Part shown: positions 48,393-56,809 of the stretch, piece after piece
How the letters are laid out: each line of letters starts with the position of its first letter
Numbering within the stretch: position 1 is the first letter of the stretch
The notes under the pieces: generated by a model
What the model was told of the DNA's origin: nothing
What the model saw: only the letters and a program-made list of their open reading frames with translations
Database searches by the model: none
Program-made: the position numbers and the translations under genes
Assembly: GCA_017502975.1 (NCBI GenBank)
Contig: JAFVTV010000004.1
Span: forward strand, 1-61,808
Direction of reading: 5' to 3'
From: Clostridia bacterium
GTDB taxonomy: Bacteria; Bacillota; Clostridia; Oscillospirales; CAG-272
DNA: 61,808 nucleotides

Positions 48393-48714
48393 TATAAAAA
48401 ACCTGCCACTTTTTGCACTTTTCCGCCAACTTTACAAATCAAACCAGTGCTCTTACGTGCTAATTTTTACAAGGTTTGTACTTTTTGAATTTTACGTTAC
48501 GTTATCAGCACAAGGATAAAGCGGTGGACAGCTCTGCCCACCGCTTTAGTGTTTTTCAAGTGTATTTTTTGTTATACATCAATTCAGTATATTTCTATAT
48601 CACCATTTTCAGAAAATCTCCAAAATTGTCCCTCAGTGGAGGGTTGATTTAGGATCTGAGCCTTACGGGCAACTTTGCAAGCCATTCTTTAGGAAATCGA
48701 TCACCGTGAATAAT
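48393..48714. other. Intergenic region with one terminator hairpin
   Basis: AT-rich 322 bp between divergent-free genes. AAAGCGGTGG (48518-48527) pairs with CCACCGCTTT (48538-48547); on the minus strand it is a terminator ~170 nt after the receptor gene. I see no other gene or RNA. Confidence 0.6.
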
Positions 48715-51700
48715 TTACGATGGTTGATGACGATTGTAGACTTCACCGTTTACCTCAACAGTAATCGTATCGGCAAGCGTGTTGGGCCACTCGGTTACAA
48801 TAAGCGTGTGCCATACGGCGGTGCTTCCTATATAGGCAATGGAAACAAGCCCCGTGCAATACGAAAAGGCTTCCGCATCGATCGCATTCACTCCCTCGGT
48901 AAGAGTAACGGTCTTCAACGGAGAGACAAAAGCAAGTGAATCCTTGGAAATGTCACCGCCCATCAAAACAAGCTCGGAGAAATTTGAGGGAAGATAAAAG
49001 GTTTCCTTGACATCTATCGGTCTTCCGTTGTAAAAAAAGTAAGTCGATACAGCGGTAAAACCTGTGCGGTTTTCCTTTCCAAAGAGAGCAAGGAGAGAGG
49101 TGGGCTCTTCCCGACTGTTTCCGATAAAATACAACGATACCGAAACAGCATCGGCCGAGGTGAGCGCACCGTTTTCAATTCTGAGCACCGTTTCAGGAAT
49201 TACGATTTCCGTAGCACCACTTTTATAAAATGCGTCCTTAATGATCTTTGTAACCGATGCGGGGATTACATAATTCGGACCGATTACAGCAATCAAAGCG
49301 TTATCCGTCATGCGTACCAGGCAAGAATCCACGATCTTGTAGTAGGGATTACCGGATGCGATCGAAAGCGAAGCCAATTCAAAATCAAACCGGTCAAAAG
49401 AAGCAACCGTGGTAGGAAGATCGATATTTTTCAAAGGAGAAGAGGTAAAGCCGCTTTCAATAACCGCAAGAACCCCCTCCGGCTCGATCACGAAGGAAGC
49501 AATAGTACAATCCTTGAAAAGCTTGGCAGGAATACGGGTAACCGTTTTACCTACAGTAAACACAATACCTCCCGACACATTGCAATTGTTGAAAGCATTT
49601 GAGGCGGTGCAGTTTGTTGCATTAAAGAAGATTGTTTTCAGCTTATTACATCCGTAGAATGCATTACCGATCACGGAAACGGTCTCGGAGATCGTGATCT
49701 CGACGATCGAGGTCTGCTGAAAGGAGTGTGCGGAAATCGTTTTCAAGCAGCCGTTTTCTTCAAACGTAACGGAAACGAGAGAGGAGTTTCTATACATAAA
49801 GCTTTCGGGAATCGTCTCAACCGTTTTACCAATCACGACGTGCTTAAAGCCACGCAACGCAGAATTGTTGACATAGGTGCAATTTGTGGCATTGTAATAA
49901 AGAGTATCGAGAAAATCGCAACTAAAAGCAGAATGTTGAATGGTTGTCACACCCTTGCCGATAGTGACAGTTTTAAGGCCGGAGGAATAAAAGCATTGAT
50001 GAGAAAGGGTCTTGACCGTATCGGGGATGTTGATGCTTTCAAGATACTGACATTCCATAAAACACCCAAACGGGATCTCGGTTACCTTACCCGAAAGGTC
50101 GATTTCTATCAACGAGGAAGAAGCAAAGGCAGATTCTCCAATAGCTAAAACACCGTTTCCCAGCACAACCTTTTCAATTTTTTTTGAGTTGAAAAAAGCT
50201 AATGAGGCAATAACGTAGTCCTTGCCTTCAAAATCTGCAGGCAGGACAAGGTCTTTTTGTTCACCGAAATATCCGCAAAGGTAGGTGTTATCTTCTGCAC
50301 TAACGAAAATGAATCCATCGTCAGTATAGACCGTGCGACGGTTGGAGGTATTATTTATGACACGGGGAGTATACTCCAAATTTGAATAAAAAACCAACGA
50401 CGTAACATTTTTTGAGGTCCGATTGATAAGCTCACAGCCTCCCCTCACTTCGAATGCATTCTCTTCGATGGTGGCATTTTTGCCAACCTCAATGATGCAG
50501 AAATTCGAAACAGAGATGGCGAGATACCGAATCGTTTTTACGCTATCCGGAATGATGATCTCGCGTATGGAACGATCTTCAACCCTGATTGCTCCTCGCG
50601 CAATTTCGGTCACAGCCATTCCATTATAGGTCGAAGGAATCACAATGTATTCATCGGTACAGCTTCCCAATCCCGTAAGAGCGCACCCCGTGTCATTTTT
50701 CGTAAACTCCAATCCTGTGGATGCGAAACGTGCTCCACAATAAATGCATGTATTGTGCTCATAGCTGTGTGAAAGTTGAGCAAGCGTCTGTTGGGAAACA
50801 AAAATGGTATTGCACAGCGAGCAGTGGCTTCCCTCGGTCTTACCGACGGCTGTACAAGTCGGTTCTATCGCCTGATCGATCACAACTGTGTGATCCTCGG
50901 TTTTAGGTACAACCGTTTGTGCGACAAGTGTTTTGTTGCACACCGAGCAATGGCTACCTTCCGTCAGGCCCGTATTCTTGCAGGTTGCAGAAACTGCCGC
51001 ATCGGTGACAGGTGTGTGATCGTTGGTAACGGGTACGACCGTTTGTGCGACAAGTGTTTTGTTGCACACCGAGCAATGGCTACCTTCCGTGAGGCCCGTA
51101 TTCTTGCAGGTTGCAGAAACTGCCGCATCAATGACAGGCGTGTGATCGTTGGTAACGGGTACGACCGTTTGTGCAGCAAGTGTTTTGTTACAAGCCGAGC
51201 AACGGCTACCTTCCGTAAGACCCGTGTCCTTACAGGTTGCAGCAACTGCCGCACCAATTACCACAGGTGTGTGAATGTTGGTTTGTGGCAAAACTCTTTG
51301 CTCTACAAGAACTGTATCGCAATGCAAGCAAACACTCCCCTCACTGATCCCAGAAGTGCTGCAAGTCGGAGCTATCCCCTCTACGGCAACAGCCTTGTGC
51401 GAAAGCTTTTCAACGCTTTGTACTTTAAAATCTCCACAGCTCTTGCACTTCATAACGACCTCACCGCCGTTTTGGCACGTTGCCTCAACAGTCGTGCGGT
51501 AAGCTTGGTATTTGTGCTCGCACGCAATCACGCTCTTTGCGGAGAAAAATGCCCCCAGGGGTAAACAGATCACACAAAGCCCTATTAAAATAACCCTTAT
51601 TTTTTTCCTTGCTCCGCCAAGCCGACGGAAGAATAAAATGGTGGCCGTAGACGGAAAAAAGCAAAGAAACGTACATACAAAAAAGATAGGGCTTATGGTC

Positions 51701-52215
51701 GGGGTATCCAGCACGTAAAATCTAAACAACAGTATGGATATTGCTATCATAATCGGCAGCCATACCGCCAAAAACATCAGGCAGGATTTAAATACCGCAA
51801 AAAAACTCCGTCGACTCATCCTTGCGCTTTCGTTTTTAACGGCACAACCTGTGCCGGAAAGTCGTTTTACAAGCGTATCAACATCCATTTGCTCAGATGC
51901 ATCAAGCTCTGAAAGCACCGTGTGCCTGTACTTCATCTCACCAAGATCTTCTTCGGTTCGTCTTTGTACGCCTGCAATGATCTGCTGAGTATCCGCTCCG
52001 CTTGACAACAGCTCTTTGATCTCCTCAACAGTAAAGCCAAACGATCTTAGCGTTGCAATGCTTTCAAGCTTTTGAAGATCTTGCTCCGAGAAATCAAATG
52101 ACTTTCTCCCAAGATAGTTTTCCGTGTAAAAAGGGGCAATCAGTTGTTCTTGTATGTAAAATCTAACCGTTCTGTCGGTAAGCCCGGTCTTCTCACAAAT
52201 CTCTTTTATTTTCAC
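48715..52215 (-). CDS. MerR-family regulator fused to three membrane helices and a BspA-type leucine-rich-repeat ectodomain
   Basis: 1166-aa chimera. The GTG at 52215 ((M)KIKEICEKTGLTDRTVRF) has AGGAGGTG upstream; the ATG at 52239 precedes that site. Residues 1-70 are a MerR winged helix with RTVRFYIQEQLIAPFY and dimer helix to ~110. Three hydrophobic helices (~136-162, 168-188, 198-218) place the rest outside. Then five ~42-residue repeats, each with CKNTGLTEGSHCSVC-type Cys pairs (~255-470), and ~15 BspA leucine-rich repeats (for example IIIPDSVKTIRYLA, IPDTVKTLSHQCFYSSGLKT). Its own promoter has the 19-bp spacer and dyad used by MerR proteins, suggesting autoregulation. The design resembles CadC/ToxR one-component receptors with a MerR head. 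The ligand and targets are unknown. Confidence 0.88.
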   Translation of the reverse strand: MKIKEICEKTGLTDRTVRFYIQEQLIAPFYTENYLGRKSFDFSEQDLQKLESIATLRSFGFTVEEIKELLSSGADTQQIIAGVQRRTEEDLGEMKYRHTVLSELDASEQMDVDTLVKRLSGTGCAVKNESARMSRRSFFAVFKSCLMFLAVWLPIMIAISILLFRFYVLDTPTISPIFFVCTFLCFFPSTATILFFRRLGGARKKIRVILIGLCVICLPLGAFFSAKSVIACEHKYQAYRTTVEATCQNGGEVVMKCKSCGDFKVQSVEKLSHKAVAVEGIAPTCSTSGISEGSVCLHCDTVLVEQRVLPQTNIHTPVVIGAAVAATCKDTGLTEGSRCSACNKTLAAQTVVPVTNDHTPVIDAAVSATCKNTGLTEGSHCSVCNKTLVAQTVVPVTNDHTPVTDAAVSATCKNTGLTEGSHCSVCNKTLVAQTVVPKTEDHTVVIDQAIEPTCTAVGKTEGSHCSLCNTIFVSQQTLAQLSHSYEHNTCIYCGARFASTGLEFTKNDTGCALTGLGSCTDEYIVIPSTYNGMAVTEIARGAIRVEDRSIREIIIPDSVKTIRYLAISVSNFCIIEVGKNATIEENAFEVRGGCELINRTSKNVTSLVFYSNLEYTPRVINNTSNRRTVYTDDGFIFVSAEDNTYLCGYFGEQKDLVLPADFEGKDYVIASLAFFNSKKIEKVVLGNGVLAIGESAFASSSLIEIDLSGKVTEIPFGCFMECQYLESINIPDTVKTLSHQCFYSSGLKTVTIGKGVTTIQHSAFSCDFLDTLYYNATNCTYVNNSALRGFKHVVIGKTVETIPESFMYRNSSLVSVTFEENGCLKTISAHSFQQTSIVEITISETVSVIGNAFYGCNKLKTIFFNATNCTASNAFNNCNVSGGIVFTVGKTVTRIPAKLFKDCTIASFVIEPEGVLAVIESGFTSSPLKNIDLPTTVASFDRFDFELASLSIASGNPYYKIVDSCLVRMTDNALIAVIGPNYVIPASVTKIIKDAFYKSGATEIVIPETVLRIENGALTSADAVSVSLYFIGNSREEPTSLLALFGKENRTGFTAVSTYFFYNGRPIDVKETFYLPSNFSELVLMGGDISKDSLAFVSPLKTVTLTEGVNAIDAEAFSYCTGLVSIAYIGSTAVWHTLIVTEWPNTLADTITVEVNGEVYNRHQPS
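50762..51394 (-). repeat. 126-bp in-frame tandem repeat within the receptor gene
   Basis: About five units with period 126 bp (42 codons); the starts align at 50888, 51014 and 51140. The two central units are almost identical at DNA level, which points to recent duplication and possible length variation between strains. Each unit encodes a module with one lone Cys and one C-x2-C pair. Confidence 0.85.
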
Positions 52216-52237
52216 ACAAACACCTCCTCTTGACGAC

Positions 52238-52268
52238 ATTATAGGGTTTTACCTTAGGTCAAAGTCAA
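52238..52268 (-). promoter_or_regulatory. MerR-type promoter and operator of the receptor gene
   Basis: Minus strand: TTGACT (52268-52263), 19-bp spacer, TATAAT (52243-52238). The spacer holds TTGACCT-A-AGGTAAA (52262-52248), a dyad with 6 of 7 matching pairs. A long spacer with a central dyad is characteristic of MerR-activated promoters. Confidence 0.8.
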
Positions 52269-53597: not shown

Positions 53598-54365
53598 TTA
53601 CTGCAAATCAGGGATAACGGTAGTGCCGTAATCGATAAAGGATATGGTATTGTCAAAAGTCATCTCTATGTCGCTATCCTCATCGGTCCTTACGTAGGAA
53701 TACTTCATCTCAACCAACTTGCCGTTTTCAAATCGGAGCGTTGCATCAGAAGGCTCGGATTCATCCCAAGGAACTGAAATCTTTTCCTTGGCACGGTATA
53801 CCTTTGCCTCAGCATCATAGGTAAAGTCATCGTAATCAAACAACTCAATGATATCGGCTATAGATTCCGCAGGATCCTCTTCGGAGATCTCTTCCTCGGT
53901 CGTACCTGCTATCGTTGCACTCATATAAACAGCGTCCTTCGTGAATTTCAAGACCATAGTGCTCTTCATCTCTACACCAACCGTTGGCACAAGAGTGAGC
54001 ATTTCTATATCCATTGTGAAGTTTTTAAACTCACTGGGATGGATAACGGCATTCCATTCTTGCTTCGTCATGCCACCAAAGGCTTCCTTCTCGGTTTTCG
54101 TGTGCGCGCAAACCGTGCAGGTATAGGTCTTTACACCGTCTGCCTCTTGGGTAGGCTTTGTGGTAACCTTTCCGTTATCCCACGTGTGGGCAGCCTTATC
54201 GGATATTTGAACGCACTCCTCTCCCGTACACGCATGCCAGTGATGGGTATCATCCTGCGACCACTCGGTTGCAAAAACGCACTCATGCTCGCCACACGAG
54301 GAAAGCACAAAAAGTCCTGAAAACAGCAACGCAACGGTGAGTAAAAGTGTCAAAGATCTTTTCAT
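53598..54365 (-). CDS. Lipoprotein with Cys-rich module
   Basis: Secreted lipoprotein, 255 aa. The ATG at 54365 (MKRSLTLLLTVALLFSGLFV) follows GAGGAG; lipobox LSSC at residues ~21-24. After the acylated Cys comes a Cys/His/Trp module: ECVFATEWSQDDTHHWHACT, GEECVQI, then YTCTVCAHTKTE, related in style to the Cys repeats of the receptor. The C-terminal part (~110-255) is beta-rich with STMVLKFTKDAVYMSATIAG and ends DNTISFIDYGTTVIPDLQ. No enzyme motif. Its gene begins just after the decayed MerR relic and has its own consensus promoter. It may be an envelope partner of the receptor; this is inferred from position. Confidence 0.8.
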   Translation of the reverse strand: MKRSLTLLLTVALLFSGLFVLSSCGEHECVFATEWSQDDTHHWHACTGEECVQISDKAAHTWDNGKVTTKPTQEADGVKTYTCTVCAHTKTEKEAFGGMTKQEWNAVIHPSEFKNFTMDIEMLTLVPTVGVEMKSTMVLKFTKDAVYMSATIAGTTEEEISEEDPAESIADIIELFDYDDFTYDAEAKVYRAKEKISVPWDESEPSDATLRFENGKLVEMKYSYVRTDEDSDIEMTFDNTISFIDYGTTVIPDLQ

Positions 54366-54408
54366 AATTTTATCTCCTCTCTCGATTTTGTTGAGGTTTC
54401 TATATTTC

Positions 54409-54438
54409 ATTATAGCATGTCACAACGACAAATGTCAA
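54409..54438 (-). promoter_or_regulatory. Promoter of the lipoprotein gene
   Basis: Minus strand: TTGACA (54438-54433), 18-bp spacer, TATAAT (54414-54409). Perfect boxes. Confidence 0.85.
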
Positions 54439-54470
54439 GAATTCAACTGCGCCCCCTCGCAACTCGCATG

Positions 54471-54616
54471 AACCTCGAGATCGGTCTCGGGGAAAAGCAA
54501 AAGATTTTTTTCCAAGACAGTTCTCCCTATAAAAGGGGGGGCAGTTTTCCTTCAATACAGAATCTTACCGTACTGTCGACAAGTCCGCACCTCTCATAAA
54601 TTTCCTTTATCTTCAC
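54471..54616 (-). pseudogene. Decayed MerR head related to the receptor at 48715-52215
   Basis: From GTG 54616 the frame reads (M)KIKEIYERCGLVDSTVRFCI and then EGKLPPLL before a stop, against KIKEICEKTGLTDRTVRF in the intact gene. A run of seven C breaks the frame; in the next frame PPFYRENCLGKKSFAF continues the match to APFYTENYLGRKSFDF, and a second C-run shift gives PETDLE against SEQDLQ. Homology then ends ~33 nt before the lipoprotein promoter; nothing of the membrane or repeat regions remains. SD GAGGAGGTG and MerR-type promoter are intact. It is a truncated, frameshifted paralogue. Confidence 0.8.
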
Positions 54617-54648
54617 AAAACACCTCCTCATGGAGTCGGTTTTTCTCA

Positions 54649-54679
54649 ATAATACGCTTTTACCTAAGGTAAAAGTCAA
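54649..54679 (-). promoter_or_regulatory. MerR-type promoter and operator of the decayed copy
   Basis: Minus strand: TTGACT (54679-54674), 19-bp spacer, TATTAT (54654-54649). The spacer carries a perfect dyad CTTTTACCT-A-AGGTAAAAG (54657-54675), better than at the intact gene. It may still bind the intact regulator. Confidence 0.8.
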
Positions 54680-55761: not shown

Positions 55762-56271
55762 GTGACAGATTTTGAGCAGCTGTACAATACATATTTCAAC
55801 GATGTATACTTGTATATCCTGCGGCTTTCGGGAAACGAACATATGGCCGAAGAAATAACAAGTGATACCTTCTTCAAAGCAATGAAATCGATCGACAGCT
55901 TCCGCGGCGATTGTGACGTGCGCGTTTGGCTTTGCCAAATAGCAAAAAACTGTTATTATTCCTATACAAAGAAAAGCAATCGAACAGAACACATTGACGA
56001 AGCCAAAATGCAGGAGATACCCGACCTCGCCCCAAGCGTGGCAGAGGAGTGTGCCCGACGTGACGAGATCGAGCGAATACAAAAAGCTTTGCACAATGTT
56101 AGTGAGCCATACAAGGAAGTATTTCTGTGGCGTGTGTATGCACAGCTCTCGTTCAAGCAGATTGCCGGGATCTTCGGCAAGACCGAGAATTGGGCTTGCG
56201 TCACCTATCACCGAGCGCGAAAAATGATTAAAGAAAGATTGGAGGGCAAGAACGGTGAAAACGGAATGTAG
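55762..56271 (+). CDS. ECF-type RNA polymerase sigma factor
   Basis: Sigma-70 family ECF factor, 169 aa, starting with GTG at 55762 after AAGGAGGTGA. Region 2: MTDFEQLYNTYFNDVYLYIL and AEEITSDTFFKAMKSIDSFR, then DVRVWLCQIAKNCYYSYTKK (2.3-2.4). Region 4: VFLWRVYAQLSFKQIAGIFG and TENWACVTYHRARKMIKERL. Overlaps the anti-sigma gene by 17 nt. It probably directs transcription of its own operon in response to an envelope signal; the target promoter is not known. A -10-like TATACT lies near 55695 without a clear -35. Confidence 0.92.
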   Translation: MTDFEQLYNTYFNDVYLYILRLSGNEHMAEEITSDTFFKAMKSIDSFRGDCDVRVWLCQIAKNCYYSYTKKSNRTEHIDEAKMQEIPDLAPSVAEECARRDEIERIQKALHNVSEPYKEVFLWRVYAQLSFKQIAGIFGKTENWACVTYHRARKMIKERLEGKNGENGM

Positions 56272-56809
56272 TGTAACAAAAGACCTGCTCCCACTTTACA
56301 TTGAAAACATGGTCAGCACAGAAACGGCGCAGTATATAAACGAGCATCTGAAAGGTTGTGACGAATGTCAAAGAGAGCTTGTAAATTTGAAAGAGGGCGC
56401 GGAGCTATCAACGGTCGAAACAAAGCCTGTTCAAATGTCTGATGATGCAAAGTCTTTCAAGAAAATGATGAAACGTATGAACAAACAGTTTTATTCTATT
56501 GCTTATGCCGCGCTCATATTTTTAATTTTCCTTGGCTTCGGGTGGACTGCAGGCAATAACCTCATGTACAATAGCTTGATTATGCCGGTCGTTGGCATTT
56601 TTGGATATTATGTATTCAAATGGAAAGCGGTTTATAAAGTACCCGTGTTGTTGCTTTTCATCGACCTTGCCATATTCGCTTTTCAACTTGTGGAGTTAGG
56701 CTTTGCGGATACGCTTATGTGGACCGTGTTGTATGCCATCTTTGTCCTCATCGGAGTGACGATCGCTTTTCTCTTACATTACGCCCTTCGGAAGGAGGAT
56801 AAAAAATGA
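56255..56809 (+). CDS. Anti-sigma factor, zinc-finger (zf-HC2) membrane protein
   Basis: Membrane anti-sigma factor, 184 aa. GTG start at 56255 with GGAGGG 8 nt upstream. N-terminal HxxxCxxC zinc motif INEHLKGCDECQRELV (~28-43) binds the sigma factor. A linker (~50-80) leads to three to four helices: IAYAALIFLIFLGFGWTAGN, LIMPVVGIFGYYVFKW, VLLLFIDLAIFAFQLVELGF, LMWTVLYAIFVLIGVTIAFL. Overlaps the sigma gene by 17 nt and the next gene by 4 nt. No extracytoplasmic sensor of its own; the third gene may supply it. Confidence 0.9.
   Translation: MKTECSVTKDLLPLYIENMVSTETAQYINEHLKGCDECQRELVNLKEGAELSTVETKPVQMSDDAKSFKKMMKRMNKQFYSIAYAALIFLIFLGFGWTAGNNLMYNSLIMPVVGIFGYYVFKWKAVYKVPVLLLFIDLAIFAFQLVELGFADTLMWTVLYAIFVLIGVTIAFLLHYALRKEDKK

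Follow-up and report, generated by a model that had tools for sequence, protein, structure and literature searches.

Can a transcription regulator of the MerR type be driven from outside the cell by a single protein? MerR proteins are known as soluble sensors, and a membrane version would let the outside drive the MerR promoter-distortion switch without a kinase. The question is raised by a gene in the window analysed here, a stretch of 61,808 nucleotides (positions 1 to 61,808 of contig JAFVTV010000004.1, assembly GCA_017502975.1) from a metagenome-assembled genome (MAG) of a Clostridia bacterium, 1.66 Mb in size and 84% complete (G000 below). A first-pass annotation described this gene, at 48715..52215 on the minus strand, as coding for a membrane one-component regulator that joins a MerR head to a leucine-rich-repeat (LRR) ectodomain. 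Our analysis makes it probable that the protein is a one-component transmembrane (TM) transcription regulator with a MerR head, a surface part composed of Cys-pair repeats and LRRs, and target genes under the control of a predicted operator. The features of the locus are as follows.

48715..52215, minus strand: MerR - three TM helices - Cys-pair repeats - LRR_5 protein, 1166 amino acids (aa), GTG start
51886..52215, minus strand: MerR-type winged-helix head and long helix, residues 1-110 (MerR_1, CueR profile, Foldseek)
51538..51780, minus strand: three hydrophobic helices, residues 146-226, with a basic loop between the second and third (Kyte-Doolittle, charge, model)
50731..51522, minus strand: Cys-pair repeats, six units, approximate limits (motif count)
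48718..50718, minus strand: BspA-type LRR region (Pfam; about 99% DNA identity to a lipoprotein gene of the sister species, G016)
52238..52268, minus strand: predicted MerR-type promoter/operator TTGACT-N19-TATAAT, dyad centre 52255 (pattern search)
52223..52228, minus strand: ribosome binding site AGGAGG (sequence)
48511..48560, minus strand: terminator-like hairpin 3' of the gene, at the end of the block common with G016 (by eye)
54446..54679, minus strand: decayed second copy, with operator at 54679-54649 (one mismatch) and MerR head (in-frame TAG)

Domain layout and membrane topology

Translation of the window gave a single open frame of 1174 codons at 48715-52239 on the minus strand. The GTG at 52215, the same end as in the first-pass annotation, is most likely the true start; it is preceded by AGGAGG at 52228-52223, and reading from it to 48715 yields the protein of 1166 aa. 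The ATG at 52239 is an unlikely start because it overlaps the end of the -10 box. Searches against Pfam matched PF13411 (MerR_1) with 46.6 bits (cut-off 21.6, E 3.7e-12) and LRR_5, of the BspA type, above its cut-off with 166.8 bits in six stretches (E 2.5e-49). A frameshift or a chance fusion of two frames was ruled out by the one open frame and the above-cut-off profiles on both sides. The helices had no Pfam match. ToxR and CadC carry an OmpR-type winged helix, and the heads of ToxR, CadC and BcrR differ from MerR; a winged helix of the ToxR/CadC type was absent among the 12 Pfam families listed up to E 1 for the window protein. The Cys-pair part consists of six C-x8-11-C-x2-C units with approximate limits, so that the repeats described by the first-pass annotation are present but number six, not five, and it contains exact repeats of up to 53 bp. 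A match to zf-Vps39_C in this part (32.1 bits, cut-off 24.7; three stretches, the best spanning 16 residues) is probably a CxxC coincidence.

The nearest solved chain to the head by profile was CueR (E 4e-9), which also gave the best MerR profile in NCBIfam; the score against this profile was 40 bits, below the cut-off of 147.4, and the head is thus not assigned to CueR. In CueR-type metal sensors the loop that follows the dimer helix holds metal-binding cysteines; no invariant Cys was found after the long helix in the family head alignment. An AlphaFold2 monomer model of residues 1-261, built from seven rows, had a mean predicted local distance difference test score (pLDDT) of 71 and a predicted template modelling score (pTM) of 0.38; it contained a winged-helix head with, at low confidence, a long helix behind it at residues 76-103. 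The 23 best Foldseek matches of the model were all MerR proteins, CadR at the top (E 5e-4, the sole match below 0.001), with CadR and CueR as the best structural matches. Profile, family search and model are thus in line with the N-terminal MerR head first proposed.

Membrane segments were called with Kyte-Doolittle plots and from the helices of the AlphaFold2 model. The plot gave segments at residues 146-164, 177-195 and 208-226, and the model gave matching helices at 135-168, 176-198 and 204-228, in agreement with the three helices of the first-pass annotation. Its placement of the LRRs outside the cell also held, for three reasons. Counts of K and R obeyed the positive-inside rule, with the tail outside, in all 19 long-tailed three-segment relatives (described below); the Cys-pair and LRR region has homologues with an N-terminal lipoprotein signal (one on contig C36 of genome G022, and the G016 lipoprotein); and an odd helix number is kept by a one-helix pair nested in the ectodomain clade of the family.

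The definition of a TM transcription regulator asks for a DNA-binding domain and one or more TM segments (PMC10269533), and the window protein has both according to Pfam, Kyte-Doolittle segments and model helices. Like ToxR, CadC and BcrR (PMC10269533, PMC13384398), it unites a DNA-binding domain with membrane helices in a single polypeptide, with no kinase involved. Like the soluble regulators CueR, CadR, BmrR and Mta, it has a MerR_1 head and a dyad in a 19-bp spacer (PMC9909328, PMC8113463); unlike them, it has no recognised small-molecule or metal domain, and carries helices and a surface domain instead. Its outer part resembles BspA-type LRR lipoproteins of related Clostridia, with 41% identity over 764 aa to the G022 protein and 93.6% over 876 aa of the Cys-pair and LRR_5 region to the G016 lipoprotein, but is joined through three helices to a MerR head rather than to a lipoprotein signal. 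Neither a membrane MerR protein nor a published description of such a family was found in titles and abstracts among the matches listed, preprints and most subscription papers being outside the scope of this search. In the main text of the survey of TM regulators, 'MerR' occurs only within an author's name, and its supplementary tables may count MerR members (PMC10269533); the word 'membrane' is absent from the main text of a MerR review (PMC9909328).

A family of membrane MerR proteins

Relatives were gathered from genus, family and GTDB records, the GTDB part being drawn from among the matches listed. Comparison of a head profile with the collected loci yielded, at a threshold of E 1e-19, at least 49 distinct members, almost all of which have membrane helices. 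In a tree the family separated from four ordinary MerR rows with support of 99/95; it contained an ectodomain clade of 23 rows (95/95), inside which the one-helix pair L001/L099 was nested (100/97). Kyte-Doolittle segments numbered three in 19, one in seven, two in two and none in one (156 aa long) of the 29 members with a tail of at least 100 aa, and four in 12, three in six, two in one and seven in one of the 20 short-tailed members; long tails therefore go mostly with odd numbers of helices and short tails mostly with four. One member, L079, is a 510-aa protein whose seven hydrophobic segments apparently reflect a duplicated membrane block.

A profile match at E 1e-10 was found in 50 of 295 family genomes (up to eight candidates scored per listed genome, helices checked for part of them). 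Phylum-wide, none of 397 other genomes had a match at E 1e-20, with at most six candidates scored per listed genome, and one more distant member, in Cohnella, was among the matches listed from GTDB records. The labels among the matches listed are mostly MAGs of Clostridia, Clostridiales and Oscillospiraceae, many from ruminant guts. MerR_1 matches two proteins of the window genome, the one studied here and a paralogue of 916 aa that has one helix, InlB-type repeats and a long LRR_5 region.

Recurrence of the same architecture in other Clostridia, which the first-pass annotation had put forward as a check, was found in part. The family is real, and MerR with a long LRR recurs in one-helix paralogues of two assemblies (L001, L011), but among the 49 members the long LRR on a three-helix receptor occurs in this genome only. 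Long MerR frames at 15 loci were also checked as relatives. Six are homologous membrane members, and the other nine were rejected as other MerR proteins, among them L016, itself with four hydrophobic segments. The MerR heads of L016 and L114, proteins with four or five such segments, are more distant; a membrane form of MerR may have evolved more than once.

The predicted operator and its targets

A TTGACT-N19 promoter is present upstream of all seven first-found members, from which the operator pattern was derived. The window promoter, TTGACT-N19-TATAAT at 52268-52238, has a dyad within the 19-bp spacer between -35 and -10, and its centre at 52255 is that of the dyad (52248-52262) pointed out by the first-pass annotation. 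A dyad in a 19-20 bp spacer marks MerR promoters (PMC9909328; PMC8113463; PMC1526738), and a MerR-type operator in the gene's own promoter is a prediction supported by this arrangement. The operator was found with at most two mismatches within 110 bases upstream of 40 of the 49 members, or 33 of 42 when the seven pattern sources are left out; of the remaining nine members eight have weaker matches (3-6 mismatches) and one, L105, has none. Most sites with at most three mismatches (38/43) begin 52-56 bases ahead of the start codon. Dyad columns 7 and 21 can pair in 43 of the 45 distinct sites, compared to a mean of 33.3 on shuffling, and 0 of 5000 shuffles reached 43.

Sites are not confined to the receptor genes. 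At up to two mismatches the own genome has nine (control 0); at up to one mismatch, 8 of 59 relatives (control 0) and 32 of 295 family genomes (reversed-pattern control 0/295) have a site. These occur in 30 of the 50 genomes with a profile match and in 2 of the 245 others. A hand count of the 61 sites at this threshold gave 30 self sites, one site before the decayed copy and 30 non-self sites, of which 26 lie in five genomes that all have a Cys-pair-type receptor (G000, G016, G022, G239, G032) and the other four in G006, G146, G224 and G300. A TM segment or a lipobox was present in 23 of 27 non-self targets at up to one mismatch and in 20 of 51 gene-like window open reading frames (ORFs) (p 1e-4, with partly orthologous targets and a crude set of window ORFs). 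With two further sites of the own genome at two mismatches, on C39 (before a trypsin-like lipoprotein) and C23, the count is 24 of 29. Pfam searches of ten targets identified trypsin-like lipoproteins with Cys-pair repeats (HtrA-like in our own naming), LRR_5 lipoproteins, a GH20 lipoprotein, and proteins of the TPR and YcxB kinds; Pfam gave no match for two of the ten and a weak match only for one more. Orthologous targets keep the operator between G000 and another genus at 59% (TPR), 47% (YcxB) and 45% (trypsin-like) identity over 329-332 columns, the G000 site of the trypsin-like orthologue having two mismatches. Sites and targets together make it probable that the receptor regulates its own gene along with a set of surface proteins.

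The operator might belong to another MerR protein, with the membrane protein merely one of its targets, and similar sites do occur at members without an ectodomain and at one ordinary MerR gene (G146). We regard this as very improbable, since the sites track the presence of the family and both MerR_1 matches of the window genome (a bin 84% complete) belong to it.

Several results weigh against the reading of the protein as a membrane receptor with its own regulon. Confidence of the structural model is low. Self sites are built into the association between sites and family genomes, and the non-self sites are therefore the better evidence; yet five of the ten genomes with a Cys-pair-type receptor among the 295 (G145, G162, G174, G268, G303) have a self site only, so that a wide regulon is not the general case. 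A site but no listed family member is found in G006 and G300, no ORF of at least 90 aa follows three of the 30 non-self sites, and four of 27 non-self targets, as well as the protein behind the C23 site, which lacks a TM segment, are not membrane proteins; the four include the ordinary MerR gene in G146 and a regulator-like protein of 184-185 aa in G022 and G239. The arms being A/T-rich, column 7 of the dyad still pairs in 41 of 45 sites when its partner is shifted by one column, and columns 9/19, 12/16 and 13/15 covary weakly (reached by 212, 811 and 314 of 5000 shuffles); the dyad therefore rests more on constant arms than on covariation.

Two observations concern individual sites. The operator-like sites at G022 C53:25666 and G239 C9:23317 precede the soluble regulator-like proteins of 184-185 aa, which are 97% identical and may possibly be part of a cascade. 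In G006, 95% complete and with no member detected, the operator at C10:96119-96149 (L130) precedes a 136-aa protein with three hydrophobic segments; the genes of its G000 and G016 orthologues are likewise preceded by the operator.

What the sequence itself shows are the domains, the agreement with the topology rule, the operator and its co-occurrence with the family, the conserved targets, the neighbouring lipoprotein gene and the fusion junction; from these we infer dimer binding, activation, the direction of regulation, the signal and co-transcription. The cytoplasmic head would bind as a dimer to dyads within the 19-bp spacers, with the Cys-pair/LRR domain displayed on the cell surface by way of the three helices. 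An outside event, be it ligand binding, envelope stress or contact with a partner lipoprotein, could shift the dimer via the helices and distort the operator DNA, making the over-long promoter usable by RNA polymerase. Such a kinase-free switch would activate its own promoter when the outer part or a lipoprotein partner reports a change. It would act on its own gene and, in relatives, on the lipoprotein gene behind the receptor; some genomes would add an envelope regulon, made up of trypsin-like proteases and LRR lipoproteins together with one TPR and one YcxB-like protein. The head could alternatively act through proteolytic release or membrane sequestration, and a trypsin-like lipoprotein bearing Cys-pair repeats of this kind lies behind an operator in four genomes (in G000 with two mismatches). 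Release is not required by the known MerR mechanism (PMC9909328), and we consider either of these routes rather unlikely compared to a conformational signal through the helices. The predicted operator, targets and partner lipoprotein of the family make each step directly testable.

The putative partner lipoprotein and the LRR junction

We compared nine loci with several kb downstream, seven of the three-helix Cys-pair type (L088-L093 and L095; L092 is counted here although Kyte-Doolittle gives two segments) and two of the one-helix type (L001, L099). The Cys-pair loci L062, L063 and L065 are outside this count. The next gene on the same strand is lipoprotein-like in eight of the nine, with LRR_5, DUF5050 or no known domain. 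A lipobox pattern flagged the neighbour in L001, L099, L090 and L091; for L088, L089, L093 and L095 the call was made by eye, on an N-terminal hydrophobic stretch with a Cys at its end, and L092 has no lipoprotein gene next door. Three receptors without Cys-pair repeats (L094, L096, L097) have no such neighbour.

At the syntenic locus of the sister species G016, a 665-aa receptor is followed by a 945-aa lipoprotein and then by the same dehydrogenase as in the window; among the loci compared, receptor and lipoprotein form one gene in the window only. DNA identity in 200-base bins was 52-79% over head, helices and repeats, followed by one bin of 90.5%, then 97.5-100% over the LRR block and 85-93% over the dehydrogenase. 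The shared block extends from about 50900, inside the repeats, to about 48511, behind the terminator. A search with the LRR block in 295 genomes (two candidates scored per listed genome) found it in the own genome and G016 only. The proposal of a regulator joining a MerR head to an LRR ectodomain thus stands in part: the sequences support a membrane MerR protein with its tail outside, an operator and a family, but the long LRR on three helices is limited to one genome and its LRR block corresponds to that of the lipoprotein encoded by the sister species' next gene.

The long LRR could reflect an assembly join between the Cys-pair repeats of the receptor and those of the neighbouring lipoprotein, the true form being a shorter receptor with a lipoprotein gene of its own behind it, like that of G016. 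The exact fusion of three helices to a long LRR is known from one assembly, lengths of only 385-665 aa are found for the other 18 long-tailed three-helix members, the LRR block is about 99% identical to a separate gene while adjoining bins are at 52-93%, and exact repeats of up to 53 bp lie in the Cys-pair part. However, the frame remains open through the join, the G016 piece between the two genes has no match above 30 bases in the bin (84% complete), a chimera limited to the LRR block would require two joins, at about 50900 and 48511, and MerR with LRR is also found in two assemblies (L001 and L011). We consider an assembly join unlikely. The best explanation of the fusion is recent recombination at the repeats, and the block 48511-50900 is apparently a recently exchanged ectodomain cassette, judged from its identity profile.

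Gene fusions often hint at joint function, and the fusion seen here suggests that receptor and lipoprotein work together, the partner lipoprotein being, in the window genome, fused onto the receptor. It is quite possible, though, that the fused LRR is passive, a surface adhesin attached by accident to a receptor that senses with its Cys-pair part or helices. In its favour, other three-helix members lack long LRRs and four-helix members are almost tail-less; against it, long LRRs are also found on one-helix paralogues and the lipoprotein is a recurrent neighbour. As a tentative extension, MerR-headed membrane receptors might form a family with exchangeable surface domains, in which each Cys-pair receptor is paired with a surface lipoprotein from the gene directly behind it, often with matching repeats, the pair controls surface genes, and recombination at repeats swaps or fuses ectodomains between species. 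If so, sensing would be rewired with the same cassette that the bacterium displays. The family itself gives a way into the control of LRR surface proteins in uncultured gut Clostridia.

Other features of the window lie upstream of the gene. The decayed copy at 54446-54679 (minus strand) has kept its ribosome binding site and has an in-frame TAG after 29 codons. A separate lipoprotein is encoded at 53598-54410 (minus strand), with a Cys-pair-like stretch of its own and a TTGACA-N18-TATAAT promoter. At 55762-56809 (plus strand), inspection by eye identified an apparent extracytoplasmic function (ECF) sigma factor gene and, behind it, the gene of a membrane protein whose start is Cys-rich and anti-sigma-like.

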